Positions 4,793 through 22,924 of a stretch of DNA of 22,924 nucleotides are shown piece by piece (position 1 is the stretch's first letter; every line of letters starts with the position of its first letter). The translations under genes and the position numbers were made by a program. The notes below the pieces were generated by a model. It did no database searches and was not told the DNA's origin. It saw only the letters and a list, made by a program, of their open reading frames with translations. Source of the stretch: a virus; the IMG/VR virus record IMGVR_UViG_3300030329_003088, positions 1-22,924 of that record; one strand, given 5' to 3'.

Positions 4793-6271
4793 ATGTCATT
4801 AATTACTAATGGTGGTTCGTTAAACCAAGTGCCTGGAGCGATTCAGGGTGAAACGCTTAACACGAACTACTTAGATTTTGCTGCCGGTACAGCGGATTGG
4901 GCAGCGCAATATCTACCTGAGGTAATGGAAAAAGAAGCTGAAGTTTTCGGTAATAGAACAATTTCAGGATTTTTATCTCAAGTAGGTGCAGAAGAGCCAA
5001 TGAGCTCGGACCAAGTTGTTTGGTCAGAACAAGGAAGATTACATCTAGCTTATACAGCGGATATTACTCACTTAACTGCTGGTACTGCAGCGGGTGGTAG
5101 AATAACAATTATTGATCACATCGATACTAACGCAGCTTACGTTGCTAATACACATGGTATACGACCTGGTGATACAGTTCTTTTAGCTACATCAGCTGGT
5201 ACTCTTAAGTGTTATGTAGAAGCTGCGGCTAACGGTTCTAACATTGTAGATGTTGTTCCTTATACTCAAGCTAACTTAGGTTCTGCTGGTGTAACAATGG
5301 TAACTGGATCAGAAAACGCGAGAGTATTCGTTTATGGTTCTGAATTTGTTAAAGGTGCGGCTGGTAGAACAATGTCTAACATTGCTTCACACGTAACTCT
5401 TAGCAACAAACCTATTATCTTAAAAGATTACTACGAAGTATCAGGTTCTGATACAGCTCAAATCGGTTGGGTTGAAGTAAGTGGAGAAGATGGTCAATCA
5501 GGTTATTTCTGGTATTTAAAATCTGCTGGAGAAACTAGATCTCGTTTTTCAGATTACTTAGAAACAGCTATGCTTGAAGGTGAGTTAGATACAAGTGGTG
5601 CTACATCTGGTGTTGATACTGCTTTAGGAGTTGCTGGTAACAGTGTTGGTACAGAAGGTTTGTTTGCAGCTGTTAGAGATAGAGGTAATTCAACTGGTGG
5701 TATCACTGGTACTAGTGCTGCGCAAGATTTAGCGGAGTTTGATGCTATCTTAGCTGAGTTTGATTCTCAAGGCGCTATTGAAGAGTATATGATGTTTGTT
5801 GATAGAACTACATCTCTAGCGATTGACGATATGCTAGGTTCAATGAATTCTTATGGAGCTGGTGGTACTTCTTACGGAGTATTTAACAACTCTGCAGATA
5901 TGGCTCTTAATTTAGGATTTACTGGTTTCCGTAGAGGTTCTTATGATTTCTACAAATCAGATTTCAAATATCTAAATCAGAAAGATGGTAGAGGCGCTAT
6001 CAATGCTATAGCTACAGGTGATGCAATTAGAGGGGTTATGATTCCTGCTGGTGTATCTTCTGTTTATGATCAAGCAATGGGTAGAAATATTAAGCGTCCA
6101 TTCTTACACGTACGTTATAGAGCTTCACAAGCTGATAACAGAAAGTATAAGTCTTGGGTTGTTGGTTCTGTTGGAGCAATGACTAGCGGTGATGATACTA
6201 TGCAAATGCATTTCTTATCAGAAAGATGTTTAGTTACACAAGGTGCAAATAACTTTATGTTATTAAGCTAA
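4793..6271 (+). CDS. Major capsid protein (HK97-type fold expected)
   Basis: 492 residues. The sequence has the features of a tailed-phage coat protein: an N-terminal helix-rich arm (residues about 20-60, ending in RTISGFLSQVG), a shoulder sheet around 75-95 (VVWSEQGRLHLAYTADITHL), and a long segment of alternating strands and helices. The C-terminal sheet (about 435-490, PFLHVRYRASQADNRKYKSW then VVGSVGA) ends in QGANNFML. Residues about 100-185 form a separate beta-rich stretch (GIRPGDTVLL and IVDVVPYTQANL) that reads like an inserted surface domain. Position after portal and scaffold and before a strong terminator fits the most abundantly made virion protein. Base usage is slightly richer in GCT/GGT codons than the neighbours, as expected for high expression. 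No protease is visible nearby, so a cleaved N-terminal delta domain is not indicated. Confidence 0.85.
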   Translation: MSLITNGGSLNQVPGAIQGETLNTNYLDFAAGTADWAAQYLPEVMEKEAEVFGNRTISGFLSQVGAEEPMSSDQVVWSEQGRLHLAYTADITHLTAGTAAGGRITIIDHIDTNAAYVANTHGIRPGDTVLLATSAGTLKCYVEAAANGSNIVDVVPYTQANLGSAGVTMVTGSENARVFVYGSEFVKGAAGRTMSNIASHVTLSNKPIILKDYYEVSGSDTAQIGWVEVSGEDGQSGYFWYLKSAGETRSRFSDYLETAMLEGELDTSGATSGVDTALGVAGNSVGTEGLFAAVRDRGNSTGGITGTSAAQDLAEFDAILAEFDSQGAIEEYMMFVDRTTSLAIDDMLGSMNSYGAGGTSYGVFNNSADMALNLGFTGFRRGSYDFYKSDFKYLNQKDGRGAINAIATGDAIRGVMIPAGVSSVYDQAMGRNIKRPFLHVRYRASQADNRKYKSWVVGSVGAMTSGDDTMQMHFLSERCLVTQGANNFMLLS

Positions 6272-6352: not shown

Positions 6353-7241
6353 GAAAACAAAAAAAGTTACAAAAAAAGCAGAAGATGATTTCTTGGATAG
6401 TTTTCCAATGAAGGATTCTAAAGAAACGGTTGTAGAGCAAGAAGTTGTAGAACAACCTAAGGTTAATGTAGATCCAAATATCCCAAAACCACCAAAAGAT
6501 ACAAAACCTATTTTTAAAGATGGTTGGGAATTAAAAGATAGAACATACTATTTAAAAGGTAGTGCTAAACCTTTAGCTAGAATACTAAGAAGTAGTGGTT
6601 TGTATTGGTTTGACGAAGAAAAAGGTTATGAAAGAGAAGTAAAATATTGCGAAAATCAAAACACATGCCTTGTAGACGAGATGAAAGGTGAACAAAGAAT
6701 GTCACACGTTATTTTTAGAGGCGGCATTTTACACGTACCAAAAGAGAAATCTATATTACAAAAGTTTTTATCTTTATATCATCCACATAAAGATAAAGTA
6801 TATTACGAGCATAAGCCAGCTGTACAAGCGGCTTCAGAGATAGATATATTAGAGGTTGAAATTGAAGCGTTAAATGCGGCTCAAAGTTTAGATATCGATA
6901 TGGTAGAAGCTATAATGAGAGTAGAAGTTGGTTCTAAGGTATCAGAGATGAGTTCTAAAGAACTTAAACGAGATGTATTACTTTATGCTAAAAGAAACCC
7001 TGCATTGTTCTTAGAATTAGTTAGCGATGAAAATGTTATACTTAGGAACTTTGGTATTAAAGCGGTTGAAAGCAATATAATAGAACTATCACAAGACCAA
7101 AGAACATTTACTTGGGCTTCTAATGGTAGAAAACTATTAAATGTCCCGTTTGACGAACACCCTTACTCGGCTTTAGCGCAGTGGTTTAAAACTGATGAAG
7201 GTATGGAAATCTACTCTAATATAGAGAAAAGATTAAGATAA
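6345..7241 (+). CDS. Unknown virion-region protein, 298 residues, Lys-rich N-terminus
   Basis: I do not recognise a named family. The N-terminus (MAKKTKKVTKKAEDD, then KETVVEQEVVEQPK) is a charged, disordered-looking 60-residue tail similar in style to the start of the acidic protein at 3559. The folded part begins near residue 60 with GWELKDRTYYLKGSAKPL and continues with YWFDEEKGYEREVKYC and a CLVDEMKGEQ stretch. It then passes into helices (about 165-225, IDILEVEIEALNAAQSLDID) and ends with an aromatic C-terminus (ALAQWFKTDEGMEIYSNIE). No transmembrane segment or catalytic motif is seen. The position between capsid and ring proteins suggests a capsid accessory or connector-assembly role; that is inference only. 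A terminator-like hairpin follows 13 bp after its stop. Confidence 0.8.
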   Translation: MAKKTKKVTKKAEDDFLDSFPMKDSKETVVEQEVVEQPKVNVDPNIPKPPKDTKPIFKDGWELKDRTYYLKGSAKPLARILRSSGLYWFDEEKGYEREVKYCENQNTCLVDEMKGEQRMSHVIFRGGILHVPKEKSILQKFLSLYHPHKDKVYYEHKPAVQAASEIDILEVEIEALNAAQSLDIDMVEAIMRVEVGSKVSEMSSKELKRDVLLYAKRNPALFLELVSDENVILRNFGIKAVESNIIELSQDQRTFTWASNGRKLLNVPFDEHPYSALAQWFKTDEGMEIYSNIEKRLR

Positions 7242-9383: not shown

Positions 9384-12300
9384 ATGGCTGAGTTAAAGCG
9401 TACATTCACTACTAGTCGAATGAACAAAGATCTCGACGAGAGATTGGTTCCAAACGGCGAGTACAGAGATGCAAAAAATATTGAAATTTTAAATTCAGAT
9501 GGTTCTGACGTAGGTTCTGTGCAAACGTGCTTAGGTAATTCTATGATTTCCGATTTAGCGCCCGGTATGGGTACAATTAGTGGAACTGATTTATACTCTT
9601 CATGTGTTGGTCATGTTACGGATGATAAGACTAATAAAATATATTATTTAGTTTCTGGATTACCACCTAGATCTAATCAATTTTTTATAAATTTACCAGT
9701 AAGATGGAATAGATTAAGACCAGCTGATCCTAACGAGCCACATTTAGGTGGACACAACTTCATATCTTCGGATATGATAATAGAATACGATTCCGTATTA
9801 AACCAGACTTTACCAGTAATGGTTGACATTTATAATGTAAGAACTGAATTACGTTATGAGTCAGATTTTTATCCTATAGCAGACGGAGCCGTTGCGCCCC
9901 CTGGATTAGCCACCCTATTCGGTAACGCCGATAATTCCAACTCTTTATATGATCATATACCCGTAGTGCACACCAGTGGACTGAGAGTTGGTATGGAAAT
10001 TGAAATGTTTGGTGGTGTTACAGGTTCTGCTATGACTAATCCAGGAACTATTATTACCGCTATACCTAGTGATGACACAATACAAATTTCTCCACCGGCT
10101 TTTTTTACACAAGCGAATGATATAACTACCACGGGTTTAAATGGTGCGGGTAAAACAATAGTTAACGCTTTTGCCCCTCGAGTCCTTAATTTCAACAAAA
10201 AAAATCTTATAACAGGGATTAATATTATTGATGATATGCTTTTTTGGACAGATGGAGAAACAGAACCTAAAAAAGTTAATATTACTAGAGGTAAACAAGG
10301 TACAATACCAGGCATGGGTATTTGTAGAGCTTGTGTGTTTAATCCTAATTTAGAAAATCCTTATGAACACCCTGGTAGTTCAGCATTTGTTAGTTTAGCT
10401 AACCCAGGTCCAACTTGGTTGGGGACAACACATACAGAATTGGTTGTAAAAGAAAATACTGTTAAAAACTTTTCAGATAACGGTGTTGCATTAAATCCAA
10501 GTGCAACTTCAATATACGGTATAGAAGAATATGTCAAAGAAGAGCATATTACCGTTATAAAAAGACCCCCATTATCCCCACCTAAATTAATAATGTACGA
10601 TAGTGTTAAAAGATTCAAACCAGACACTAGAGAATTACATGATGTTCATACTACTGACTTTTATAATTGGGAAGGTAATAACCCTAACGATCCAGCTGGA
10701 CCAAATATATTGACTCCAGTTGGAACAACGTCTATGGAGTGGAATGATGTAAATCCAGGTTCGCCTATGGCGTATTTTAATAGCGGCGCTGATTTTAGAG
10801 TTGATGATATATTATTGTTAACAGATAATCAAAACGCAGCTATAGACGCTAATGGTAATCCATTACCATTTTCAGGTGACGATGTCAAGATTAGGTTGAA
10901 GGTAATACAATCTAACTCTACGGCACAAAACCCAATTCATATATCATCGCCCACTAATGGTGGGTTGCAAGTTAAGGTTTTGTATATAGATGAACTCTAC
11001 GTTTCTGGATTAGGTGGAGTGGATTGGTATGTAAGATTAGAAGATGGCACAGAGTCTTTATATGAATTAAAATTTCCTAAATTCGGTTATAGATATAAAT
11101 ATGAAGACGGTGAATATTCGTCTTTTTCACCATTCTCTGAAGTCGCGTTTTTACCTAAAAAGTTTGAATACGATGCTACAGAGGGTTATAATATAGGTAT
11201 GACAAATGGATTAAAACAACTATTTGTAAAAGATTTTATACCATCTAATATACCTAAAGATGTGGTTGAAGTTGATCTTTTATACAAAGAATCTGATTCA
11301 CCTAATATATATACTTTAAAAACATTTGATGACACAGATCTTGAGTGGAACACGTATGGTACTGGAAGTCATAAAGGATTTTTTGAAATAAAAAATGACT
11401 TAATACACGCTGCAGTTGCATCTAATCAATTATTGCGCCCATGGGATAACGTTCCTAGAAAAGCATTAGCCCAAGAAGTTACAGGTAACCGACTTGTATA
11501 TGGTAATTATATACAAAACTATGATATAAAAGAAAGTGGTAACAATATTGATATTATTAAACCAACTTTCAAAACAATATTAGAAAGTAACACAATTATA
11601 TCTATTGATGAACCTGGTGATTCTCCTGCAAAATCACTAAAATCAATGAGGACTTACCAATTAGGTGTTGTTTATAAAGATTTTTATGGTAGAGAAACTC
11701 CAGTTTTATCAAATGAAACGGCTATTGTTAAAGTAGATTCTTCTAAAGCTGTTTTTGATAATGATATAACAATACAATTAGAATCACCACATCCTTCTTG
11801 GGCACACTCGTTTAAATACTTTGTTAAAGAAGTTTCAAATGAATATTATAATTTAGCGATGGATAGGTGGTATGATGCTGATTACGAAGAATACGATGGT
11901 GACAGAAGAAGTATATGGATGTCTTTTCCTTCTGAGGATAGAAACAAAGTAGATGAAGAGACAACTCTTATACTAAAAAAAGCAGATAACCAAACTACTA
12001 CTATTACTAGTGGTTTTGTAGAAACTACACCTAGGTATAAAATATTAGCTATAGAAAGCGAAGCTCCAGATTTTATAAAAACCACTATGGAAACTTTAGG
12101 AGATCTTTTAGTGACTGACGCTGCTGGTCAAGTTGTTAGTGGTAGTACTGGTCCTGGATTTTACCATACAGGTTCATTACCTGGTATACCACTTCCAGAT
12201 TACAGTCAAATTAGAATCCCATCAGATATGTGGGAAGGAAGTAAATTTGCTAGTTTACAAAACGAAAACAACAATCTTTTAAGTGGTAAGTTGATGAGTA

Positions 12301-15300
12301 GAGGTAGTAGTGCAGTATTGCGTTTTAGAGCTACCGATATAGGATTCATATCAAGTTGGTATAATATCTCTAATATTTCTTATGACAAAAAAAGTACTAA
12401 TTTTTATACTGTTGTAATAGACGGATTTTTTAAAGATGAATTAAACTCTTTGTTTGGCAACGTAACTACTCCAACTGAAACTGATATGATAGCTAATATA
12501 ACAGTTGAAATAGCACAAAAAACTTTAGAGAACAGACCAGAGTTTGATGGTAGATTTTTTGTTAAAATAAAAAGTAACCCTGAACTTAAAAGCGTATTAG
12601 GACTCGAAGGTTCTATAACAAACACAACAAGTTGGGGTACTGAAGCCACTATGAGCACTTATTTTCTTTATGGTGCCGCTGAAATAAGTAATGGCGGTGG
12701 AATATTTAATTCGATTAATACTCCTTATGCCCAAAGTACATTTACCGCTATATCAGGTAACTATGGAGTCACAACCCCTTATAATCATTCAATTTTACCT
12801 ACTTGGGAGCAATATGGCACTAGATTAGTCACAGCCATACTAGGTGTAAATAATTGTTTTGGTTCTGGTTGTGGTGGAGGTGCACAAGGTAATATTGAGC
12901 CATTGGCAGATGATGGCGCGGGTTGGGGTAATGGAAATCAACCTTCAAACATGCAAAGTAACTGTGGTTCTTTTTGGGATCCTTATTGTTCTCAAGTTGA
13001 TTTTTCACCTCCATATAGAGTTGCACAAGATTGGAATGATTTATTAGCAGTAAATGGAGTTTTTCCAACATATTCGACACCTGAAGGAGGTATGTGGTTT
13101 ATAGATTCTGATCCATGTATAGAAACGGGTATATACACTGTACAGGGACAGTCAAATTCAAATGCCGCCAAAAGAGCTTATGAAGTGTCAGAAACTGGTA
13201 AAGGGGCTGATATTGGAAATAGTGAGATAACTATTTCTTTCGCCGGGGATATCCAACATACCAATAGCGGTGGGCAGAACAGTCCGAATGGGAATATACC
13301 TTCCCACGAACAAGACACCTATGACAAACTAACAACAATCGGGACTAAATTTAGATTTGCTCAAGATCCTGATGGTATAGTATACGAAATATATCAAGCT
13401 CATGAGGATTGGGTGTGGAATTGGGTGCCTCCTACCACGGCACCAGGTAACACAAGCAAATCATTAAGAAGAAAAAGAATACATTTAACATTAATAGAAC
13501 CCGGGTCTGCGAATCCTGGACAAACTTTATCATATAAAAGAATAGGAGAACCTTTAGCTGGAAATTTTTTAACAGGTTCTACGTCTTTTGCCACCGCGTA
13601 TTCGCCTTGTAATTATACTGATATAGGTGGCCCAAGTAATCCTGATGGAGCTAAATGGAATGTGCCTACAACAATAGAATTTGTTACACCTAATGTTTCA
13701 ACACAAGAAACAGAATATTCTAAAAATCCAGCCATTTGGGAAACAGAACCAAAAGAAAATGTTGGTTTAGACGTTTATTATGAAATAAGTGATTCTTATC
13801 CAACAAATATGTGTGATGAAAACGAAGAGTTGTATATACAACCTGGGGCTACAGTTTCTATGCATGAGTCTATATTCACGTCTTCTGCTGGCGCGTGCAC
13901 CACTTGTCCATGGTCAACTTTGGGTTGGGGTGATTTTAATTATTATGAAGATGGGGCGTTAAACCTTACGGCACCAGTTATTTACGGGGCAAATTCACCA
14001 ACTAAAATATTATCAACAACTCATACTTATAGTGGTGTTGGCTCAACAATATCTTATAATGGTTATCAAGAGGTTAGATTTAATGCTATGGACATGGGGG
14101 TTTGGAAAAACAAGTATATAACTATAGAATCGTCCGCGGCTACTAATATTAGCGTAGGTGATAGTGTTGATTCACTTATAACACCAAACCCCGTACCAGT
14201 TGGTACTACTGTCGCGGATATATTTACCACAATAAACAATGAAATCTTAATAGAAGTAACCCCACCTATTCCAGTGCCTCACTCAAGTATGGTATCTATA
14301 CCTGGCGGTAGTGTTGTAACTTTTGATGGTGCAACAAGTCCATCTTTGGTTGAATCTCCAGCAACCGTAAGAGCAGTAACAGGATGCGCTGGACTACCCT
14401 ATCCTTTTCCTTCTGGACCTAGATCTACAAAAATAGAGTTAAATTGTGGGCAAGTATTAAACGAAGGTGATGTATTAGCTTTCCACAATCCAGATGGTAC
14501 TATTGTTACCGCCACAGTAGCTATTAGTTCCGGGGGATTTGCTAGTAATGGAATTGATCAAAATATAATATATGTAGACGCTACTACGCATGGACAAAGA
14601 CACACATTATCATATTATAACTGCTACTCTTTTGGTAATGGTGTTGAATCTGATAGAATTAGAGATTTATATAATGCAGTTAGATTAGATAAAGGTGTTA
14701 AAGCTTCTACAACTTTAGCCGAACAATACAAAGAAGAAAGTAGATCAAGTGGTATGATATTCTCTGGTATATATAATAGTATGAATGGTGTTAATAGGTT
14801 AAATCAGTTTATAATGGCTGAAAATATAACAAAAGATTTAAACCCAGAGTATGGTAGTATACAGAAACTACACCAAAGAGATACTGATTTAATAACTCTT
14901 TGTGAAGATAAAGTTTTAAAAGTTTTATCTAACAAAGATGCTTTATTTAACGCTGATGATACTAAAAATATAACAGCAACACAAAACGTTTTAGGTAATG
15001 CAATACCATTTGTGGGTGAATACGGTATATCTAAAAATCCAGAATCATTTGCCCACGAAGGTTTTAGAGCGTATTTTACAGATCAAGAAAGAGGTGCTGT
15101 ATTAAGATTATCGAGAGATGGTTTAACACCTATATCAGAAGCTGGCATGAAAGATTGGTTTGCAGATAATTTACCAAATAATGCAATAGACTTTTTTAAT
15201 AAAGACAAAAAAAGATTATTAGGTAGTTATGATAGAAGAGGTGACTTATACAATCTATCTATTATGGACGAAGATGGTAATCATAATTACGCAGGAGAAA

Positions 15301-15938
15301 CAATTAGTTTTAGCGAAAAAGCTGGTGGTTGGGTTAGTTTTAAATCTTTTGCCCCGGAAATTGCTTTTAGCTTGAATAGCGAATATTATTCAGGTAAAAA
15401 CGGTTGGTTGTGGAAACATCATGATAATACTGTAGATAGAAATAGTTTATATAGTATAGCGCCTAATACTTTAGATGACACTGATGGTGTTATAAATAAT
15501 AGGTCATATATAACAGTTTTATTTAACGATTTACCTAGCGTTATAAAAAGTTTTAAAACTTTAAATTATGAGGGTACACAATCTAAAGTTCATCAAAACT
15601 TATCTGATAATAAACATCGTAATCAACAACCTGAAAAAGGTTGGTATGTTAATGAAATTGTCACAGATCAACAAACCGGTACAATACCAGGTTTTGCTCT
15701 ACTTGACAAAGAGTGGGAGGGTGAATTTATAGAAAAAGAAGGTAAATGGTTTAATTATATAATAGGTAGACAGCAAGCTTGGAAACAGGGGAAAAGTGAT
15801 ATTGACGGTGGTATCAACGCGCCAATAATTGATAGTGGTGTAAACAAAAAAGATACTAAAGAATTAGCTACTCAAGGTATTGGTTTCCCTATAGGAGCCA
15901 CGTATACAAATTCACTTGGTAATGTAATTCGAATATAA
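9384..15938 (+). CDS. Giant tail nozzle ('muzzle'/stabilization) protein, T7 gp12-type
   Basis: 2184 residues, the largest gene here. The N-terminus (FTTSRMNKDLDERLVPNGEY then RDAKNIEI) is the typical start of podovirus nozzle proteins, in which a strand and loop lead into a beta-propeller; the same style appears in T7 gp12-like and crAss-like muzzle proteins. The C-terminal third (about 1755-2184) again shows propeller-like blades: YNSMNGVNRLNQFIMAENIT, CEDKVLKVLSNKDAL, GFRAYFTDQERGAVLRLSRD, LGSYDRRGDLYNLSI. Residues about 190-240 contain one beta module also found in the next gene. Between about 1150 and 1755 lies a Gly/Pro/Asn- and Cys-rich insert. The protein should form the distal, host-facing end of the short tail. 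It is expressed with the ring proteins (3-bp gap). The nozzle role is well supported by position and N-terminal style; receptor-binding by the insert is inference. Confidence 0.75.
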   Translation: MAELKRTFTTSRMNKDLDERLVPNGEYRDAKNIEILNSDGSDVGSVQTCLGNSMISDLAPGMGTISGTDLYSSCVGHVTDDKTNKIYYLVSGLPPRSNQFFINLPVRWNRLRPADPNEPHLGGHNFISSDMIIEYDSVLNQTLPVMVDIYNVRTELRYESDFYPIADGAVAPPGLATLFGNADNSNSLYDHIPVVHTSGLRVGMEIEMFGGVTGSAMTNPGTIITAIPSDDTIQISPPAFFTQANDITTTGLNGAGKTIVNAFAPRVLNFNKKNLITGINIIDDMLFWTDGETEPKKVNITRGKQGTIPGMGICRACVFNPNLENPYEHPGSSAFVSLANPGPTWLGTTHTELVVKENTVKNFSDNGVALNPSATSIYGIEEYVKEEHITVIKRPPLSPPKLIMYDSVKRFKPDTRELHDVHTTDFYNWEGNNPNDPAGPNILTPVGTTSMEWNDVNPGSPMAYFNSGADFRVDDILLLTDNQNAAIDANGNPLPFSGDDVKIRLKVIQSNSTAQNPIHISSPTNGGLQVKVLYIDELYVSGLGGVDWYVRLEDGTESLYELKFPKFGYRYKYEDGEYSSFSPFSEVAFLPKKFEYDATEGYNIGMTNGLKQLFVKDFIPSNIPKDVVEVDLLYKESDSPNIYTLKTFDDTDLEWNTYGTGSHKGFFEIKNDLIHAAVASNQLLRPWDNVPRKALAQEVTGNRLVYGNYIQNYDIKESGNNIDIIKPTFKTILESNTIISIDEPGDSPAKSLKSMRTYQLGVVYKDFYGRETPVLSNETAIVKVDSSKAVFDNDITIQLESPHPSWAHSFKYFVKEVSNEYYNLAMDRWYDADYEEYDGDRRSIWMSFPSEDRNKVDEETTLILKKADNQTTTITSGFVETTPRYKILAIESEAPDFIKTTMETLGDLLVTDAAGQVVSGSTGPGFYHTGSLPGIPLPDYSQIRIPSDMWEGSKFASLQNENNNLLSGKLMSRGSSAVLRFRATDIGFISSWYNISNISYDKKSTNFYTVVIDGFFKDELNSLFGNVTTPTETDMIANITVEIAQKTLENRPEFDGRFFVKIKSNPELKSVLGLEGSITNTTSWGTEATMSTYFLYGAAEISNGGGIFNSINTPYAQSTFTAISGNYGVTTPYNHSILPTWEQYGTRLVTAILGVNNCFGSGCGGGAQGNIEPLADDGAGWGNGNQPSNMQSNCGSFWDPYCSQVDFSPPYRVAQDWNDLLAVNGVFPTYSTPEGGMWFIDSDPCIETGIYTVQGQSNSNAAKRAYEVSETGKGADIGNSEITISFAGDIQHTNSGGQNSPNGNIPSHEQDTYDKLTTIGTKFRFAQDPDGIVYEIYQAHEDWVWNWVPPTTAPGNTSKSLRRKRIHLTLIEPGSANPGQTLSYKRIGEPLAGNFLTGSTSFATAYSPCNYTDIGGPSNPDGAKWNVPTTIEFVTPNVSTQETEYSKNPAIWETEPKENVGLDVYYEISDSYPTNMCDENEELYIQPGATVSMHESIFTSSAGACTTCPWSTLGWGDFNYYEDGALNLTAPVIYGANSPTKILSTTHTYSGVGSTISYNGYQEVRFNAMDMGVWKNKYITIESSAATNISVGDSVDSLITPNPVPVGTTVADIFTTINNEILIEVTPPIPVPHSSMVSIPGGSVVTFDGATSPSLVESPATVRAVTGCAGLPYPFPSGPRSTKIELNCGQVLNEGDVLAFHNPDGTIVTATVAISSGGFASNGIDQNIIYVDATTHGQRHTLSYYNCYSFGNGVESDRIRDLYNAVRLDKGVKASTTLAEQYKEESRSSGMIFSGIYNSMNGVNRLNQFIMAENITKDLNPEYGSIQKLHQRDTDLITLCEDKVLKVLSNKDALFNADDTKNITATQNVLGNAIPFVGEYGISKNPESFAHEGFRAYFTDQERGAVLRLSRDGLTPISEAGMKDWFADNLPNNAIDFFNKDKKRLLGSYDRRGDLYNLSIMDEDGNHNYAGETISFSEKAGGWVSFKSFAPEIAFSLNSEYYSGKNGWLWKHHDNTVDRNSLYSIAPNTLDDTDGVINNRSYITVLFNDLPSVIKSFKTLNYEGTQSKVHQNLSDNKHRNQQPEKGWYVNEIVTDQQTGTIPGFALLDKEWEGEFIEKEGKWFNYIIGRQQAWKQGKSDIDGGINAPIIDSGVNKKDTKELATQGIGFPIGATYTNSLGNVIRI
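9954..10104 (+). repeat. Beta module in nozzle protein (residues about 191-240)
   Basis: VVHTSGLRVGMEIEMFGGV followed by TIITAIPSDDTIQISPP has the same plan as the three modules of the 484-residue protein downstream: TxGLxxGMxI, a Gly-rich turn, a V/I-x-x-I strand, then a D-x-I-x-x-S/T-P strand. This is a protein-level repeat; the DNA copies are not near-identical. Confidence 0.55.
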
Positions 15939-15967
15939 TCATGAATAAAAATTAAAATTAATTAATT

Positions 15968-17422
15968 ATGGCATTATATAGTACTTTAACAACATTAAAT
16001 AATAATATAACACCAAATCCTAGTGTCAACGTTACTGGCGCAAAAACAATAACGGGTTTAGCTATAGACACCTCATCGTTAACTAGCGATGGTGAATTTA
16101 GAAATATAAGTGTTAATGGTACTCCGGGTTCTATATTTTCTTTAACTATTGAAGATAAAAATGGTAGAAATGTATTACCATACTCTAATAGAATTAATAA
16201 GATTGTAAAAACAGCTGTTAGTGCCTCTAATACTTTAGAATTAAATAATACTTCTGGATTAGAAGTTGGAATGGTATTATTAAATAACCAAAGAAGAAAT
16301 GTTAAAATAAAAGGAATTTCAAAAAGTTCAAAAACTAATGAAGACGCTATCAACGAAACTTCATCAACATATATAACCGTTTCTAATTATATTACTTTAG
16401 CCGCTGATACACCAGTGGTTTTTGTAAAAGAACAAGAATTAAAAGAAATTGTTATACCTAATAGTGGTTCTTTTTCTTTTGTACAACATTTTCCACCATT
16501 AGAAAGATTTAAAAGAACATTAAAGACAGCTGCTAGTAGCGCTAGTTCATTAACGCTAGATTATACAAAAGATTTAGAAAAAAATATGAAAATAAGCGGT
16601 ACTGGCGTTGATGGTAATAATCCTATAATATCAGCGGATATTACTAGTGATACCATCGTAAGTGTTACACCCGCTCAAACAATAGACGATGAAACAGAAT
16701 TAACGTTTGAAATGCCAGATAATAGATATGATATAACTATTCGCCCAATAAACGCCTTAATAGGAGATAGTATCCCAAAATATTCTTCTAAAGATTGTGA
16801 TATTATGCCCGCCTATTCTATATATCAATATGTAGATCCTGTGGTAGAGTTTATACCATCGTCTGCGCTATCAAACGTAACAACAAGTGGTACCGTTTCT
16901 TATACTGGTAAGGTTAATAAACCTTATAGCACCGATATCGCTATAAGTATGACAGCTACTAAAAGTGATGGAAATCTAGCAACATCTAGAAATCCTCGAT
17001 TTTCAGCATCAGATTCTACAGTATCGGATTTTGATAATACACTAAATACAACTACTAAAAAAGTAAGGGAAGGTGATTGTCATGACAAAGATATTGTTCA
17101 CTTAAACAATACTACTGGTATAAGAACTGGTATGATAGTTACTGGTGATAATATAGATGAAAATAAAACAGTAACAGTTAAAAGTATAGTGGGTACATCG
17201 GTTAAATTATCTGAAAAACAGCCTATAGAAAAAGATGATAAACTACAGTTTAGTAGTATGCACAAAATTACATTGCATAGTTTAACAGCTGCACTTAGTC
17301 CTAATGGTGGACATTCTACTGGTACATGTACTGTTACTGGTAGTGGTAAAATAACAACTTTTGGAGTGGATAGTTTTAAGTCAACGTTTTCTTTTGATAA
17401 TTTTCTATCTATAACAGAATAA
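15968..17422 (+). CDS. Beta-rich virion protein with three inserted GT-type modules (fibre or decoration candidate)
   Basis: 484 residues, mostly short beta strands. Three units share one plan: residues about 80-152 (ELNNTSGLEVGMVLL ... ITLAADTPVVF), 183-247 (LTLDYTKDLEKNMKISGTGV ... DDETELTF) and 365-428 (HLNNTTGIRTGMIVTGDNI ... KLQF). Removing units 1 and 2 leaves a continuous sandwich-like sequence: ISVNGTPGSIFSLTIEDKNG, then EIVIPNSGSFSFVQHFPPL, then NRYDITIRP. The modules therefore look inserted in loops of a core domain. Similar GTGIPxGTxVxxI...ITLS modules are common in bacterial and phage surface proteins. The gene follows the nozzle gene by 29 bp and starts with ATGGCATTA like the 8220 and 17435 genes. 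A tail or head fibre, or a decoration protein, is plausible; no catalytic motif is seen. Confidence 0.75.
   Translation: MALYSTLTTLNNNITPNPSVNVTGAKTITGLAIDTSSLTSDGEFRNISVNGTPGSIFSLTIEDKNGRNVLPYSNRINKIVKTAVSASNTLELNNTSGLEVGMVLLNNQRRNVKIKGISKSSKTNEDAINETSSTYITVSNYITLAADTPVVFVKEQELKEIVIPNSGSFSFVQHFPPLERFKRTLKTAASSASSLTLDYTKDLEKNMKISGTGVDGNNPIISADITSDTIVSVTPAQTIDDETELTFEMPDNRYDITIRPINALIGDSIPKYSSKDCDIMPAYSIYQYVDPVVEFIPSSALSNVTTSGTVSYTGKVNKPYSTDIAISMTATKSDGNLATSRNPRFSASDSTVSDFDNTLNTTTKKVREGDCHDKDIVHLNNTTGIRTGMIVTGDNIDENKTVTVKSIVGTSVKLSEKQPIEKDDKLQFSSMHKITLHSLTAALSPNGGHSTGTCTVTGSGKITTFGVDSFKSTFSFDNFLSITE
16205..16423 (+). repeat. Beta module unit 1 in 484-residue protein
   Basis: Residues about 80-152. 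Key positions: TLELNNTSGLEVGM, then VKIKGIS, then a longer Ser/Thr-rich turn than in the other units, and ITLAADTPVVF. It lies between the first two core strands of the protein. Confidence 0.6.
16514..16708 (+). repeat. Beta module unit 2 in 484-residue protein
   Basis: Residues about 183-247. Key positions: SLTLDYTKDLEKNM, KISGTGVDG, IISADIT, TIVSVTPAQTIDDETELTF. It lies between the strand SFVQHFPPL and the strand RYDITIRP of the core. It is the closest of the three units to the widespread GTGI-type consensus. Confidence 0.6.
17060..17251 (+). repeat. Beta module unit 3 in 484-residue protein
   Basis: Residues about 365-428. Key positions: IVHLNNTTGIRTGMIVTGDN, TVTVKSIVGTSVKLSEKQPI, KLQF. 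It sits in the C-terminal core domain, before strand HKITLHSL. LNNT(S/T)G is shared exactly with unit 1. Confidence 0.6.
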
Positions 17423-17434
17423 TTAAATAATAAT

Positions 17435-17950
17435 ATGGCATTAATAATACCAACACCAACACACATGACGTTTGAATTTACGTCACCAATAAATGAATCT
17501 CTTCAAACTGGTGACAGTGGAACCCCAGCAAGGGGAGATATTATTTATTATTGTCCCACTACGGTGCACGGTGGATTCAATACCGTCAACAACATAAACC
17601 ACCCTAACACAGGTATAGTTCGTGTAGGTTTAGCTCGAAGTGTAACTATAAACGCTATTGGTCGCTGGGAATTAAATGTGGAAATTGATAATGCGGCTGG
17701 CACTGGTTGTGCTCCGGGTTTTTTTCCTGGAGTAATTTTTGTTTGCCCAACCCCCGCGGAAATACTCGATATTGTAAACGGTTATTCACTTGATTGTAAC
17801 AACGACTGTTTTCTTATGTTTAGTAAAAATACAGAAGCGAATAGAAGTAGTTTATTAGGTTACTATGCAGAAGTTGCATTTGGTAATGATTCTCCAGATA
17901 TAGCTGAATTATTTGCGGTAAGCACGGAGGTTTCTGAGAGTAGTAAATAA
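17435..17950 (+). CDS. Small Cys-containing beta-rich virion-region protein, 171 residues
   Basis: I do not recognise a named family. The protein is beta-rich, with five cysteines at 40, 92, 104, 121 and 125, including CxxxC (CNNDC). It has conserved-looking parts at GIVRVGLARSVTINAIGRWE, at FPGVIFVCPTPAEI and at the C-terminal end LLGYYAEVAFGNDS followed by AELFAVSTEVSESSK. That end (aromatic strand, acidic turn, SxEVxESSK) is familiar from small uncharacterised proteins of uncultured marine phages, from memory only. It has no signal peptide or membrane segment. It starts 12 bp after the 484-residue gene and is probably its partner in the virion, such as a small tail or decoration protein. 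The antisense frame here is a shadow. Confidence 0.75.
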   Translation: MALIIPTPTHMTFEFTSPINESLQTGDSGTPARGDIIYYCPTTVHGGFNTVNNINHPNTGIVRVGLARSVTINAIGRWELNVEIDNAAGTGCAPGFFPGVIFVCPTPAEILDIVNGYSLDCNNDCFLMFSKNTEANRSSLLGYYAEVAFGNDSPDIAELFAVSTEVSESSK

Positions 17951-17996
17951 ACAATAATAGATGTAATTATAAAATAATGATAAAAACAATAAAATT

Positions 17997-18884
17997 ATGG
18001 CAGTAGGTTTAAAAAAGATGGGAAAACCATCACCTTTAAAAATTTTACCTTGGGTAGCGGCTAACCCAATGGCAGCTATGGGTATAGCCCAAGCTGGTGT
18101 AAGTGTTTTAGGTGGTTTAATTGGTGGTAGAAAAAGAAGAAGAGAGCAACGTAAAGCTAGAGAAGCTATGGAAGCGTCTAGACGAGCTTATATGGACCAA
18201 GAATATGTAAATCCCTATGCTAACTTAGAAAACCCCTATGAGGATCTAACTGTTAATCAACAGCAAGCGCAATTTCAAGCTCAGCAAGGAGCACAGCAAA
18301 GAGCTGATATACTAGGGGGTTTACGTGAAACAGCTGGTGGGGCTGGTATTGCTGGTTTAGCACAGGCGATGGCGCAGCAATCTACTTTACAAACGCAACA
18401 AATATCAGCATCTATTGGACAGCAAGAAGCGCGTAATCAAAGGTTAAGAGCACAAGGCGCTATGCAAACTCAAAGATTAGAAAGATACGGAGAACAAATA
18501 AGACAAGGAAAAGAAGAACAAAGAATACAAACTTTATATGGTATGGACATGGGTAGGTTAACCGCCGCTAATAAAGCTAGACAACAAGCTAGACAACAAA
18601 TGATAAGTGGTATTGGTAGGGGTTTAGGTACTATAGCCCAAGGAATAGGTATGGGGGAAACGCCATGGGCTAAAGCTGGTGGAGCGGCTAATGTAGATGG
18701 ATCACTAGATGTTGGTTTACAAAGAGGAAGTGTACAGGGTTTAAATTATGTTCCTCCGCAGACAAACCAATTCCAATTTGATCAGGGACCCTCTTTTAAT
18801 TTTTCCCAACAACAAGGACTTCTCCAACCTAATCAAAATTTAATGGGAAAAACATTTAATATTATGACGGGACAATGGGAATAA
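17997..18884 (+). CDS. Putative internal virion / ejection protein A (T7 gp14-like in build)
   Basis: 295 residues. Residues about 18-44 (ending GVSVLGGLIGG) are a hydrophobic, Gly/Ala-rich helix, followed at once by a very basic stretch (RKRRREQRKAREAMEASRR, 45-63). Two NPYxxL motifs follow (72-77 and 79-84), then a long Gln/Ala-rich amphipathic coiled coil (about 85-200) and a flexible, Gln/Asn/Phe-rich end (QFQFDQGPSFNFSQQQG). A short membrane-active helix plus a Gln-rich coiled coil is the usual build of the smallest ejection protein in podoviruses (T7 gp14, P22 gp7). It heads a three-gene set whose products increase in size, as in T7 14-15-16. Sequence identity to T7 gp14 is not claimed. 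Start ATG 17997 has leader ATAAAATT. Confidence 0.6.
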   Translation: MAVGLKKMGKPSPLKILPWVAANPMAAMGIAQAGVSVLGGLIGGRKRRREQRKAREAMEASRRAYMDQEYVNPYANLENPYEDLTVNQQQAQFQAQQGAQQRADILGGLRETAGGAGIAGLAQAMAQQSTLQTQQISASIGQQEARNQRLRAQGAMQTQRLERYGEQIRQGKEEQRIQTLYGMDMGRLTAANKARQQARQQMISGIGRGLGTIAQGIGMGETPWAKAGGAANVDGSLDVGLQRGSVQGLNYVPPQTNQFQFDQGPSFNFSQQQGLLQPNQNLMGKTFNIMTGQWE

Positions 18885-18899
18885 TAAAAATATAAAATT

Positions 18900-20636
18900 A
18901 TGGCAAACGGAAATTTAATAACTCAAGCGCAAAAAATGTATGAATCAGAGTTAGATACTACTGATTACGCTAAATTACTAACTGAGCCAGCTGTTAAGGC
19001 TATAGGTGATATGCTAAAGGTGCAAAGAGTTAAAACTGAAGCGCTAATGGCTGCTATGCCTGCTGGTGTAAACATATCTAAAGTACCTGAAGAATTAAGA
19101 GGTAAAGTAACTGAGTATTTAACAAAAAATAAAGCGGCATATACTGAAGCTGCTAAAGTTGTTGCCTCTGGAATAAAACCAACAGATCAGAGATATATCG
19201 ATGCTATAGAGACAATGAATAGGGTTCGTGGTGGGTTTGAAGCTTTAGATGCTAGTTTAGTTAATATAGCTGAAAAAAGAAAAGCAGCTTTAGAAAGTAG
19301 AGATAATATATCAGCTGGCGCGCATGATCACGATTCAATACTTCATGAAAAGTGGGCTAATGGAGGTATATACGATGATTTTACATTAGAAGATGGTAAT
19401 TTTTATTATACAGATCATGAAGGTAATAAAGTTAACGCTAATGATTATGCTGGAACTATGCAACAGTCTACAGGTGTCACAGACGGTATGCTTGCACAAA
19501 GTGATCGAGCTAGGGAACTTGGAAGTAAGGGTTATAGTTTTGAAGATGAAGAAGGGAATTTTAGAGGGAGTATAAATGGTATGCTTAAAAATGCTGGTAA
19601 AGATGGTAGAGTAGATTTTGCTTATAGTGGCGTTTATGGCGCTGATAATACACCGTTTATTGACACATATATTAAAGAAAATCACCCACCAGAAGAATAC
19701 GATCGATGGTATGCGCATTATAAAAACGAAGATTTTAGCGCTGGTACCGATATGGGTGATAAATTAAGAGAGTATTTACTAGGTACACTTAGAAATTCAT
19801 ACGATTCGGGTGTAGCCGCTAAAGCAGCTCAAGATAAAGAGAATCAAAAAACTAGAACTAAAACTACTTGGGACACTTCTTTCGGTAACCCTTCTAAAGT
19901 TAGAGCAAATAATTTTATTGATAAAGTAAATAACAATTCGGAAACTGTAACAGATTTACGGGGTAACAAATGGATATTACAAGAAGATGGAACATATAAA
20001 GCTGATGCCGATCCAAGTCAAGTTAGAACACGTGCAGAACTGATAGAGGAAAATGAAATGGAAGCTTATTATCCTGATATATATTCAGGTATATTAGATG
20101 CAGATGGTGGTATACAAACCGCTGGGTTTAATCGAGACGATCCTGCTGATGCTGAAACTATTTTAGGTACTAATATGTCTCATACTACTTTCCAAATGTC
20201 ACAAGAAGACGGTGCGGCAAATATGAATCAGCAATTTGCAGATTACAAAGATTTTGTAAGATTTGATGCGGTTGGTAGCTTTGCTTATGATAAAGTTGCG
20301 GTTACCGCTGGACCTAACCATCCAACTCCAGGAGAAGTACTATTTACAATGGAATTTGATTATGGAAGTGAAAAGAAGCAAAAGAAAGAAATGAAAAGGT
20401 TTAATGATTGGCTGAGAACTCAAGATTGGTATACAACAGAACAAGACGCGGGTGCACAAGATACAGACGTACAAGATACAGATGTACAAGAAGCAGATGG
20501 TAGCATAGAAAAACCATTTACATTACAAGAGGGAGAAGAACCTACACGTGGTAAATATTATAAATTAGAATTTGATCCAGACGGTATATATAAGTTTGAT
20601 GGCAGGGTATATCGTGATGTTGATATAGAAGAATAA
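18900..20636 (+). CDS. Putative internal virion protein B, 578 residues
   Basis: Not recognised by family. Residues about 1-135 are helical (AQKMYESELDTTDYAKLL, AVKAIGDMLKVQRVKTEALM, YIDAIETMNRVRGGFEALDA). The remainder is acidic, with many Tyr and Asp (FTLEDGNFYYTDHEGNKVN, WYAHYKNEDF) and little sign of membrane segments. Residues 514-533 hold four 5-residue units (EQDAG, AQDTD, VQDTD, VQEAD). The C-terminus is a small beta hairpin (GKYYKLEFDPDGIYKFDGRV). It is flanked by the ejection-A-type gene (15-bp gap) and by the peptidase-carrying gene (2-bp gap), so it is read as the middle member of an ejection set by position only. It could equally be a cargo or tail-core protein. Confidence 0.6.
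   Translation: MANGNLITQAQKMYESELDTTDYAKLLTEPAVKAIGDMLKVQRVKTEALMAAMPAGVNISKVPEELRGKVTEYLTKNKAAYTEAAKVVASGIKPTDQRYIDAIETMNRVRGGFEALDASLVNIAEKRKAALESRDNISAGAHDHDSILHEKWANGGIYDDFTLEDGNFYYTDHEGNKVNANDYAGTMQQSTGVTDGMLAQSDRARELGSKGYSFEDEEGNFRGSINGMLKNAGKDGRVDFAYSGVYGADNTPFIDTYIKENHPPEEYDRWYAHYKNEDFSAGTDMGDKLREYLLGTLRNSYDSGVAAKAAQDKENQKTRTKTTWDTSFGNPSKVRANNFIDKVNNNSETVTDLRGNKWILQEDGTYKADADPSQVRTRAELIEENEMEAYYPDIYSGILDADGGIQTAGFNRDDPADAETILGTNMSHTTFQMSQEDGAANMNQQFADYKDFVRFDAVGSFAYDKVAVTAGPNHPTPGEVLFTMEFDYGSEKKQKKEMKRFNDWLRTQDWYTTEQDAGAQDTDVQDTDVQEADGSIEKPFTLQEGEEPTRGKYYKLEFDPDGIYKFDGRVYRDVDIEE
20439..20498 (+). repeat. Four 15-bp tandem units in frame (EQDAG-AQDTD-VQDTD-VQEAD)
   Basis: Units at 20439-20453, 20454-20468, 20469-20483 and 20484-20498. 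The second and third differ only by GCA/GTA and GAC/GAT changes; the outer units are more diverged. It encodes an acidic linker before the C-terminal beta part, and its length could vary among relatives by slippage. Confidence 0.75.
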
Positions 20637-20638
20637 AT

Positions 20639-22924
20639 ATGATAAAATTTAGATTAGCAGACGGTACTTACAAAAATGTAAAGCCAGAAGATGTTGATAT
20701 TTTTAAAGAGCGTTATCCTAGCGCTGTGGAGGTTGGTGGAGGTATACCAAGTGTTGACGTTAAACCTAAATCAGAAAATACTTTTTGGAACACGGTGAAA
20801 AATTTAAGTATGACCGCTTCTGCTTTAACTAATCCTATGACAATGATTCCTACTTTAGTTGCGGGAGAAGTTAAAAAAGCTAAAGGTGAAGACGAACCTG
20901 TTTTAAATACTATAGCTAGAATTGGTGGTGAATATGCAGAATCATTATATGTTGGTTATAAAACTGGTACTGTAGTGGAAGAGTTTTTAGAGGTACAAAA
21001 AGGAAATCATTCTCCAGAAGCAATTGAAGCTATGATAAAAGCTGGTGACATGCTAAATAAATTACCACAAAATGATAGAATGATTAAGTTTGCTAAAAAA
21101 GTAGAGGAAGCTGGCGGGGGTTTTTGGAATGGACTTTGGTTATTAGCAAAAGAAGATAAAATATTAGCGTCTCAAGTTGCGTTACAATCTTTAGCTATGA
21201 TGGCTACTGCGGCTACACATGAAACTATTGAAGAGATAGCAGAAGGAAATCAACCCGATGTTTTAAAACACATGATTGTTGGTGCAGGAACCGGGGCTTT
21301 ATTATATGGTGGGGCTGGTGCCGCTGTTGGGTCTGCTGTCCCTATAGCTGGTACCACTGCTGGTGGTATACTTGGTGCAGGTACAGGTTTTGCAGCTGGT
21401 GGAATAGGTGGTTTATCTTTTGCTATGGAAAAAGGTTTAGTTTTTGTTGAATTACTAAAAGAGGAGATTGAAGCTAGCGGGTTAGAGTATAATAAAGAAA
21501 ACATAAGAAGATTCTTAGAAGACGACGAGAAGTATTTAGATATAAGAAATAAAGCTATCAAAAGAGGGTTAACAATAGGTGTTATTGATATGCTTTCTGG
21601 AGGATTAGCTGGGGCTACCACGGTGAAGACAGGTAAAGTTTTAGCTAAAACAGCTATGATAGGATCTAGGGGAACTAAAATTGCTGCTATTGGAGCTGGT
21701 ACAACAGTTGAAGGTATTAGTGGTGGTTTTGGGGAATTTTTAGGTCAAAAAGCCGCTGGACAAGAATATAATTCTGCTGATATTATTTTAGAAGCGTTTG
21801 CAGAAACACCTGGAGCATTAATTACATCTGTACCTAAAGCTGTTTTGCAAGAAAAAGCAACATATTCTATGATAGAAAATGATGTTAAAATAAATTATAC
21901 TAAAAAAGAATTTTTAGATAAAATAGAAGGTTTAAGTGATGAGAGTATAGCTTTGCTAGATTTAGAAGTAACCAATGATGACGTTTTAGCTAGAGAACTA
22001 TTTAATCGTCAAAACGATTTTATAATACGATCTCAAATAGATCCTAGAGTGAATAACGAAGCGGATATAAAGAAGTTAGTTGAATTAGAGAAACAAAGAC
22101 AAAAAGCTGAAGCTGATACTAAAAAGAAAGGTGTATCTGCAGCTCCTAATGCTAAAGAAAAACTTTTAAATATTGAATCTCAAATTGAAGAGATTATCAA
22201 TAAGTACGAAGGTGTAGATCGTAGAACAAAAGATGTTAGAGCAAGAAAAGAAAAAGCAGCAGAAGTTAGAAAAGTAATAAGAGAATCTACTTTAAAAGAA
22301 ACAATTGAATTTGCTAAAAAAGGTGGAAAGATTATAGGTAAGGACGTAATAGTAGCTGATAATGATACTGACGCCCAAACGCTACATGATAAAGCTGTTA
22401 AAGAATGGAACGCGAGTAATCCTGATAATCAAATAAAAGCTGAGGACGTGGCTGGAGCTGACGGTTTTATTGTTGGAGATACTATTATAATAAACAAAGA
22501 TGTAGCTGGAAAAACAGGACAAATAAACGTTGGTGCACACGAATTGCTACATGGAATTGTGGCTAAACACATGCAGGGGTTAAGTGTTGAAAAACAGACA
22601 AATTTAATATCTGATTTTAAAAATACACTAACTAAAGAGCAAAGAAGTTATATAGAAACAGAAATTAACCGTAGGATTAAAGCTGGTGAAGATTTAAACA
22701 TAAACACTACGGAAGAATGGTTAACTGTATTTTCTGATGGACTTACTAAAGGTGATATAACCTTTAATGAAGGCGTTTTTGATAAATTAAAAAATGTTTT
22801 TGAAGAAATACTTAAAACGTTCGGTATTAGAAAAGAGTTTGAGAATGGTAGACAGGTTTATAACTTTATGAGGGACTACCAAAAAAGTATTAAAACTGGT
22901 AAACTTAGTGGAAGAGCTATTAAA
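20639..22924 (+). CDS. Large internal virion / ejection protein with zinc-metallopeptidase domain (3' end outside window)
   Basis: 762 codons are open to the right edge. It starts at ATG 20639, 2 bp after the previous stop. Residues 1-35 (MIKFRLADGTYKNVKPEDVD, FKERYPSAVEV) form a compact N-terminal element. Residues about 212-263 are a Gly/Ala-rich hydrophobic stretch (GAGTGALLYGGAGAAVGSA, GGILGAGTGFAAGGIGG), and a second such region spans about 310-374. Residues about 475-562 are a charged coiled coil. HELLH at 634-638 (His634, Glu635, His638), after strand DTIIINKD, is a zincin-type active-site signature; Glu692 or Glu693 (TTEEWLTVF) is a candidate third ligand. The role would be cell-wall or protein cleavage, or self-processing, during DNA ejection, with the Gly-rich segments entering the membrane. 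The substrate is unknown and the full length cannot be seen. Confidence 0.7.
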   Translation, partial: MIKFRLADGTYKNVKPEDVDIFKERYPSAVEVGGGIPSVDVKPKSENTFWNTVKNLSMTASALTNPMTMIPTLVAGEVKKAKGEDEPVLNTIARIGGEYAESLYVGYKTGTVVEEFLEVQKGNHSPEAIEAMIKAGDMLNKLPQNDRMIKFAKKVEEAGGGFWNGLWLLAKEDKILASQVALQSLAMMATAATHETIEEIAEGNQPDVLKHMIVGAGTGALLYGGAGAAVGSAVPIAGTTAGGILGAGTGFAAGGIGGLSFAMEKGLVFVELLKEEIEASGLEYNKENIRRFLEDDEKYLDIRNKAIKRGLTIGVIDMLSGGLAGATTVKTGKVLAKTAMIGSRGTKIAAIGAGTTVEGISGGFGEFLGQKAAGQEYNSADIILEAFAETPGALITSVPKAVLQEKATYSMIENDVKINYTKKEFLDKIEGLSDESIALLDLEVTNDDVLARELFNRQNDFIIRSQIDPRVNNEADIKKLVELEKQRQKAEADTKKKGVSAAPNAKEKLLNIESQIEEIINKYEGVDRRTKDVRARKEKAAEVRKVIRESTLKETIEFAKKGGKIIGKDVIVADNDTDAQTLHDKAVKEWNASNPDNQIKAEDVAGADGFIVGDTIIINKDVAGKTGQINVGAHELLHGIVAKHMQGLSVEKQTNLISDFKNTLTKEQRSYIETEINRRIKAGEDLNINTTEEWLTVFSDGLTKGDITFNEGVFDKLKNVFEEILKTFGIRKEFENGRQVYNFMRDYQKSIKTGKLSGRAIK

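Follow-up and report, generated by a model that had tools for sequence, protein, structure and literature searches.

A zincin-like domain in a giant, probable cargo protein of a crAss-like marine phage, and a candidate cleavage motif in its relatives

We analyzed a 22,924-nucleotide stretch of viral DNA (the window), which is the IMG/VR virus record IMGVR_UViG_3300030329_003088. Its last gene encodes the beginning of a giant protein with a zincin-like metallopeptidase domain. In full-length relatives of this protein, a short motif, FS[RK][ST], recurs at the junctions between the domains that follow the zincin. We propose that the zincin autoprocesses the injected polyprotein. Catalysis and cleavage are both predicted from the sequences, and we see the case for autoprocessing as about evenly balanced, but we favor it over the cutting of peptidoglycan. 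Giant phage proteins that are ejected and contain a zincin are already known; what is new here is a clade of such zincins that matches no known family, along with a candidate cleavage code.

A giant gene at the end of the structural block

All genes in the window, and all features of the window described below, are on the + strand. In order, the genes encode the end of terminase, the portal, a charged protein of 400 amino acids, the major capsid protein (4793..6271; PHROG_13704, E = 3.7e-89), further virion proteins, a 2184-aa homologue of the crAss-type muzzle protein (9384..15938), a 295-aa protein (17997..18884), a 578-aa protein (18900..20636), and the 5' part of the gene for the giant protein (20639..22924), which we describe as a virion-cargo (polyvalent) protein. 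This gene is open at its 3' end: it runs off the contig after 762 amino acids. It reads GDTIIINKDVAGKTGQINVGAHELLHGIVAKHM. Full-length relatives have about 2200-3000 amino acids.

The muzzle protein matches PF25731 (crAss_MUZ) well above the Pfam cut-off (E = 1.4e-14; 53.7 bits vs. a cut-off of 27), so we group this type of virion with those of the crAss-like phages. Its C-terminal domain matches PF25729 (E = 1.5e-5). The major capsid protein is 24-46% identical to those of Flavobacterium phages, Cellulophaga phages, and MW202828, and the portal, capsid, and muzzle proteins resemble those of Flavobacterium elemo, Cellulophaga, and Maribacter phages. The source is a crAss-like marine phage, and its hosts are probably flavobacteria.

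Given its position and its relatives, the giant protein is quite likely to be carried in the virion and ejected. In Cellulophaga phage phi40:1, the structural block likewise finishes with a giant gene, gp101 (1691 aa), whose product was detected in virions by MS/MS. This protein has no HExxH, no FS[RK][ST] motif, and no significant sequence similarity to our protein, so the virion location is argued from position and kinship. The 295-aa and 578-aa proteins might also be ejection proteins: their places in the gene order correspond to those in the series gp52/51/50 of N4 and gp099/100/101 of phi40:1, and neither has a family match in PHROG or Pfam searches. The virion of phi-crAss001, which bears a muzzle as well, stores large cargo proteins in the head and the tail, and these are believed to be ejected in a partly unfolded state (PMC10172136); the likeness of the cargo is by description. 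The words "protease," "proteolysis," and "cleavage" are absent from the main text of that paper.

PHROG_32588, a family of unknown function, matches residues 74-524 of the giant protein (E = 5e-31), which covers only the part that precedes the zincin. Within this part, a hydropathy scan identified a stretch rich in Gly and Ala that resembles membrane-active segments (residues 175-273; 21161..21457), and there is a second such hydrophobic stretch at residues 311-329. Residues 410-560 (21866..22318) are highly charged (42% K, R, D, or E) and resemble a coiled coil, as judged by inspection alone. The initial annotation, which was made from the window's sequence, had noticed both kinds of segments. 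It presumed a DNA-ejection protein, which agrees with our inference from the muzzle protein and the MS/MS data for phi40:1, but it took phage T7 as its model, and a crAss-like phage fits better. It also placed the zincin where T7 gp16 carries a transglycosylase. We found no match to a transglycosylase in Pfam or PHROG for the part in the window, or in Pfam for three full-length relatives. The two proteins have no domain in common, and we dropped the analogy.

A zincin-like domain with four invariant residues

Residues 551-762 (22289..22924) are almost certainly a zincin-type metallopeptidase domain, with predicted metal binding and catalysis, given our alignments (A1 and A2) and an AlphaFold2 model. 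A direct search with this domain found 8 relatives, and a profile search found 80 loci, some of them on shared contigs.

In an alignment of 43 diverged homologues (29-71% identical to the window's protein), the invariant columns are exactly H634, E635, H638, and E693. The first three belong to the HELLH sequence (22538..22552), which lies where the initial annotation had reported it; H634 and H638 are predicted metal ligands and E635 is the predicted general base. For the third ligand, either E692 or E693 (codons at 22712-22717) had been suggested. E693 (22715..22717) is 55 residues after H638 and is present in all 43 homologues, while position 692 is a glutamate in just 20 of the 43, so E693 is the candidate. 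This four-residue invariance is the pattern that is expected of a metal site. Other positions are nearly as constant: D700 (22736..22738), in the helix that E693 opens, is D in 41 homologues and E in the other 2, and in the strand TIIIN (residues 615-619; 22481..22495; assigned by DSSP on the model), which lies directly before the HExxH helix, I616, I618, and N619 are kept in 40-42 of the 43.

We also checked whether close or distant homologues had lost H634, E635, or H638, and none had: besides the invariance in the alignment, HExxH is kept in 70 of 70 non-redundant family members. The downstream glutamate pattern was found in 69 of the 70, and the last member also reads ...AEEYLNIFHDA. From the composition of the giant protein, 0.006 occurrences of HExxH are expected, and 107 of 20,000 shuffled sequences contain one. 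Because the motif is kept across homologues, it is far beyond chance.

The AlphaFold2 model of the domain, which was run on nine sequences (pLDDT 84.5, pTM 0.73), has the topology of a zincin, as the initial annotation had anticipated; what the model supports is the order of the elements. These are a helix, a strand, a helix, two strands, a short helix, the HExxH helix (631-646, preceded by the edge strand 615-619), two helices, a helix that begins at E693 (693-704), and further helices. This fits the description of the zincin metallopeptidases (MPTases) of polyvalent proteins, which have an N-terminal helix, a three-stranded sheet, the HExxH helix, and a later helix with a glutamate (Iyer et al. 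2017, PMC5512222). When we compared the model to the PDB with Foldseek, no match had E below 0.001, and a zincin ranked second (E = 1.6, TMq = 0.36). Among the viral models of BFVD, it matched uncharacterised giant proteins from phages, at best with E = 8e-6.

The domain matched no family in sequence searches of Pfam, NCBIfam, PHROGs, or the PDB. In the window and its relatives, no Pfam MPTase-PolyVal or LPD model matched, and no other zincin model scored above its cut-off. The sub-threshold Pfam matches among family members recur in metallopeptidase families (M78, DUF6782, DUF3267, and SprT). With tblastn, we found no match to the domain in phage isolates or plasmids. Among bacterial genomes, the domain is on two contigs from metagenome-assembled genomes (MAGs) only, so we see no sign of prophages.

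The one link to isolates surfaced by profile only. Profile A2 matches residues 1461-1660 of gp18 of the Flavobacterium elemo phages (25.6 bits), a protein of 3694 amino acids that is annotated as structural. The match surrounds HEIFH1543, and these phages, which are isolates, have related portal, capsid, and muzzle proteins. Unlike the proteins in our family, gp18 is much longer, has different flanking sequence, and lacks the recurring motif.

Zincins in other giant phage proteins

Zincins within giant phage proteins were already described for the polyvalent proteins (PMC5512222). Like those, our protein is a giant multi-domain phage protein with a minimal HExxH zincin and a glutamate in a later conserved helix. 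Unlike those, it has other neighbouring domains, a candidate cleavage motif, and no match to Pfam's MPTase-PolyVal above the cut-off. For the polyvalent MPTases, autoprocessing has already been proposed, and the targeting of host proteins is another option on the list (PMC5512222).

Another example is the virion RNA polymerase of phage N4 (vRNAP, gp50), an ejected giant protein with an internal HExxH domain, C1 (PMC12633501). Both are giant podovirus proteins whose genes close the structural block, after two genes for smaller proteins, which in N4 are ejection proteins. However, C1 has no detectable sequence similarity to our zincin, gp50 lacks FS[RK][ST], and we recognised a T7-like RNA polymerase domain in none of three full-length relatives of our protein (by Pfam). 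The N4 protein is packaged uncut, and its HExxH domain is required for encapsidation (PMC5512222).

Domains downstream of the zincin

Because the gene in the window ends at residue 762, we read the downstream part of the protein from full-length relatives. After the zincin, these have a domain that resembles region 2 of sigma-70, variable segments, a segment with the sequence DFDDT, and a C-terminal domain. As in polyvalent proteins, several different domains are thus joined in one giant protein.

The sigma-like domain (at 6592-6996 of locus L004, with equivalents in about 11 other loci) is strongly conserved, with a mean column identity of 70% in alignment A3. Its similarity to sigma-70 region 2 is seen in Pfam for one member (E = 0.003) and in a sequence search of the PDB (E = 0.22), and sigma factors head the list of fold matches in the PDB (E of about 1). 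If this resemblance is meaningful, then virions may deliver a sigma-like factor. We take the DFDDT segment (DFDDTLA) to be HAD-like because of its motif; the C-terminal domain has no tblastn match in phage isolates.

From their sequences, cassettes seem to have been swapped between relatives. Between residues 1535 and 2343 of the giant protein of locus L013, inside and beyond the DFDDT segment, there are an extra stretch with a P-loop-like sequence (GGPGSGKST) as in kinases and a further cassette that is bracketed by two IKFSKS sites. In locus L005, the giant protein ends in a short tail with Cys and His, RCVAIKKSGGRCKNQTKNKSKKCYAHQ, which resembles a small zinc-binding motif.

A repeated motif at domain junctions

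At the apparent domain borders of the relatives, we spotted variants of one short sequence (FSRS, FSKS, LSKT, and similar). Downstream of the zincin, FS[RK][ST] occurs 88 times, as compared to an expectation of 6.3 from composition or 11.1 from shuffles that preserve dipeptides. In the N-terminal part and the zincin, it occurs 2 times vs. 2.9 expected. A looser pattern, [IV]xFS[RKQ], occurs 83 times in the 70 non-redundant proteins (10 expected) and 6 times in the other ORFs of the same contigs (8.2 expected), which is the background rate.

The occurrences in different homologues do not count as independent of each other. The argument rests mainly on the finding that, within a single protein, several unrelated junctions have the same core. 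When we clustered the sites by the sequence around them, the grouping was too greedy for a count of independent sites, so we counted distinct junctions by fixed distances to domains. The places that repeat are 13 amino acids after the zincin, 13-14 amino acids before DFDDT (a HAD strand), and 31 amino acids after FADDA. The first of these, about 13 amino acids behind the zincin, is ahead of the sigma-like domain. In L013, IKFSKS is on both sides of the extra cassette, and the looser pattern gives five sites. In a model of residues 531-858 of the L004 protein, model residues 197-227 form a linker with pLDDT below 50, FSRS is at the end of it, at 225-228 of the model and 755-758 of the protein, and a confident helical domain follows.

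The serines of the motif are encoded by both TCN and AGY codons, even within one gene. Because the codons vary, we interpret the motif as a signal at the protein level, with selection on the protein, and we ruled out a DNA recombination site.

The strict motif is absent from about a quarter of family members, and in some members the first junction has a looser sequence (ESRS, ASKT, or LSLS). The gene in the window has no motif, since the contig ends before its first site is reached.

We also looked at nine polyvalent proteins with LPD38. The motif occurs 8 times in these (expected: 3.6), and a single protein, which also has a zincin, accounts for four of the occurrences. Two gammaproteobacterial LPD38 proteins have one RFSRS each and lack HExxH; another two LPD38 proteins have a zincin and lack the motif. 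Because either can be present without the other, the motif and the zincin are not strictly tied. On these numbers, FS[RK][ST] is at most a candidate for a motif shared by polyvalent proteins in general.

What might the zincin cut?

Three kinds of substrates had been suggested in the initial annotation: peptidoglycan cross-links, periplasmic proteins, or the protein itself. Because, in full-length relatives, the repeats of the motif at domain junctions are confined to the part behind the zincin, the giant protein itself is the best supported of the three, and nothing points to peptidoglycan. In the mechanism that we propose, a crAss-like podovirus would pack the giant protein into its virion and eject it into the cell. 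The domain at residues 551-762 would act as a zinc-dependent peptidase, with the metal bound by H634, H638, and E693 and water activated by E635. This peptidase would cut the polypeptide to which it belongs, or another copy of it, at the F-S-[R/K]-[S/T] core, in flexible linkers that join the downstream domains. The cuts would release at least the sigma-70-region-2-like domain, the variable cassettes, the HAD-like domain, and a large C-terminal part, while the peptidase and the membrane-active segment would stay together in the N-terminal piece. Processing might happen before or after ejection; it could allow the pieces to pass through the narrow tail, or it could free working effectors, such as the sigma-like factor, in the host.

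A stricter form of this proposal, in which the zincin recognises FS[RK][ST] at every downstream junction and the ejected protein falls apart into a sigma-like factor, a HAD-type enzyme, and exchangeable cassettes, is more tentative; we consider it possible, but would not bet on it. The related zincin in elemo gp18, which comes without a series of motifs, argues against self-cutting. The N4 protein, which is packaged uncut and has no motif, argues for self-cutting.

Alternatively, the zincin might, once injected, act as an effector and cut a host protein involved in defence, the envelope, or transcription, with FS[RK][ST] being cut in some other way or serving as a docking motif. Iyer et al. 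list such targets among the options for polyvalent MPTases, and the LPD38 proteins with a motif and no HExxH would also fit. We consider this unlikely, as the motif starts right behind the zincin and is absent, above background, from the N-terminal part and the zincin itself, which is the layout expected for self-processing. Also, very diverged phages retain the active site while the rest of their cargo is swapped.

It is somewhat less likely still that another protease, for capsid maturation or from the host, cuts the repeated motif, and that the zincin has a separate task. The prohead protease of the giant phage SPN3US cuts head proteins, including some that are packaged and ejected (PMC10052503), and the loose tie between the motif and a zincin in cis would also fit. 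But we recognised no second protease candidate among the structural genes of the window (by PHROG and Pfam); the contig is incomplete and other genes may lie beyond it.

We think it improbable that the zincin opens a path for the DNA by cutting peptidoglycan cross-links or periplasmic proteins. The giant protein is probably ejected and has hydrophobic segments that might act on membranes, which would suit this role, but the zincin domain matches no family of peptidoglycan peptidases, and the passages of PMC5512222 that we consulted do not connect the zincins of polyvalent proteins with peptidoglycan. Least probable, if by little, is that the domain is a structural relic whose fold is needed for packaging, as the encapsidation of the uncut N4 protein might suggest, since a purely structural role would not explain why the two histidines and two glutamates of the putative active site, and nothing else, are invariant in 43 sequences.

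Returning to autoprocessing, the idea that the zincins of polyvalent proteins cut the proteins that carry them dates from 2017 (PMC5512222), and we did not find a cleavage motif for it in the literature that we searched. The motif makes the idea directly testable: it predicts the cut sites, the number and sizes of the pieces, and which piece is released first (the sigma-like domain). If the proposal is correct, then it would help to explain how very large cargo passes through a narrow phage tail, and the domain borders of many unannotated giant proteins from marine phages could be read from their sequences. It would also be a bacteriophage counterpart to the polyproteins of eukaryotic viruses, with a readable cleavage code.

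Other giant proteins

We noticed a few other giant proteins in related phages and in the LPD38 set. In MW202828, a giant protein of about 3860 amino acids, which begins at 7228, has two HEFGH motifs and does not match the zincin profile that we built. It is annotated as "reticulocyte binding/rhoptry protein," which is probably misleading. In Maribacter phage Panino, a gene for 1829 amino acids (13229-18718) adjoins the structural block; its product is annotated as a tRNA methyltransferase and lacks HExxH. The two LPD38 proteins with RFSRS (L116 and L117; 1810 and 4888 amino acids) each have the site in a linker that is rich in Gly or Asp. Another protein, L127, has HEWFH at 1282 and four FS/YS-[RK] sites, all of them downstream of its HExxH.
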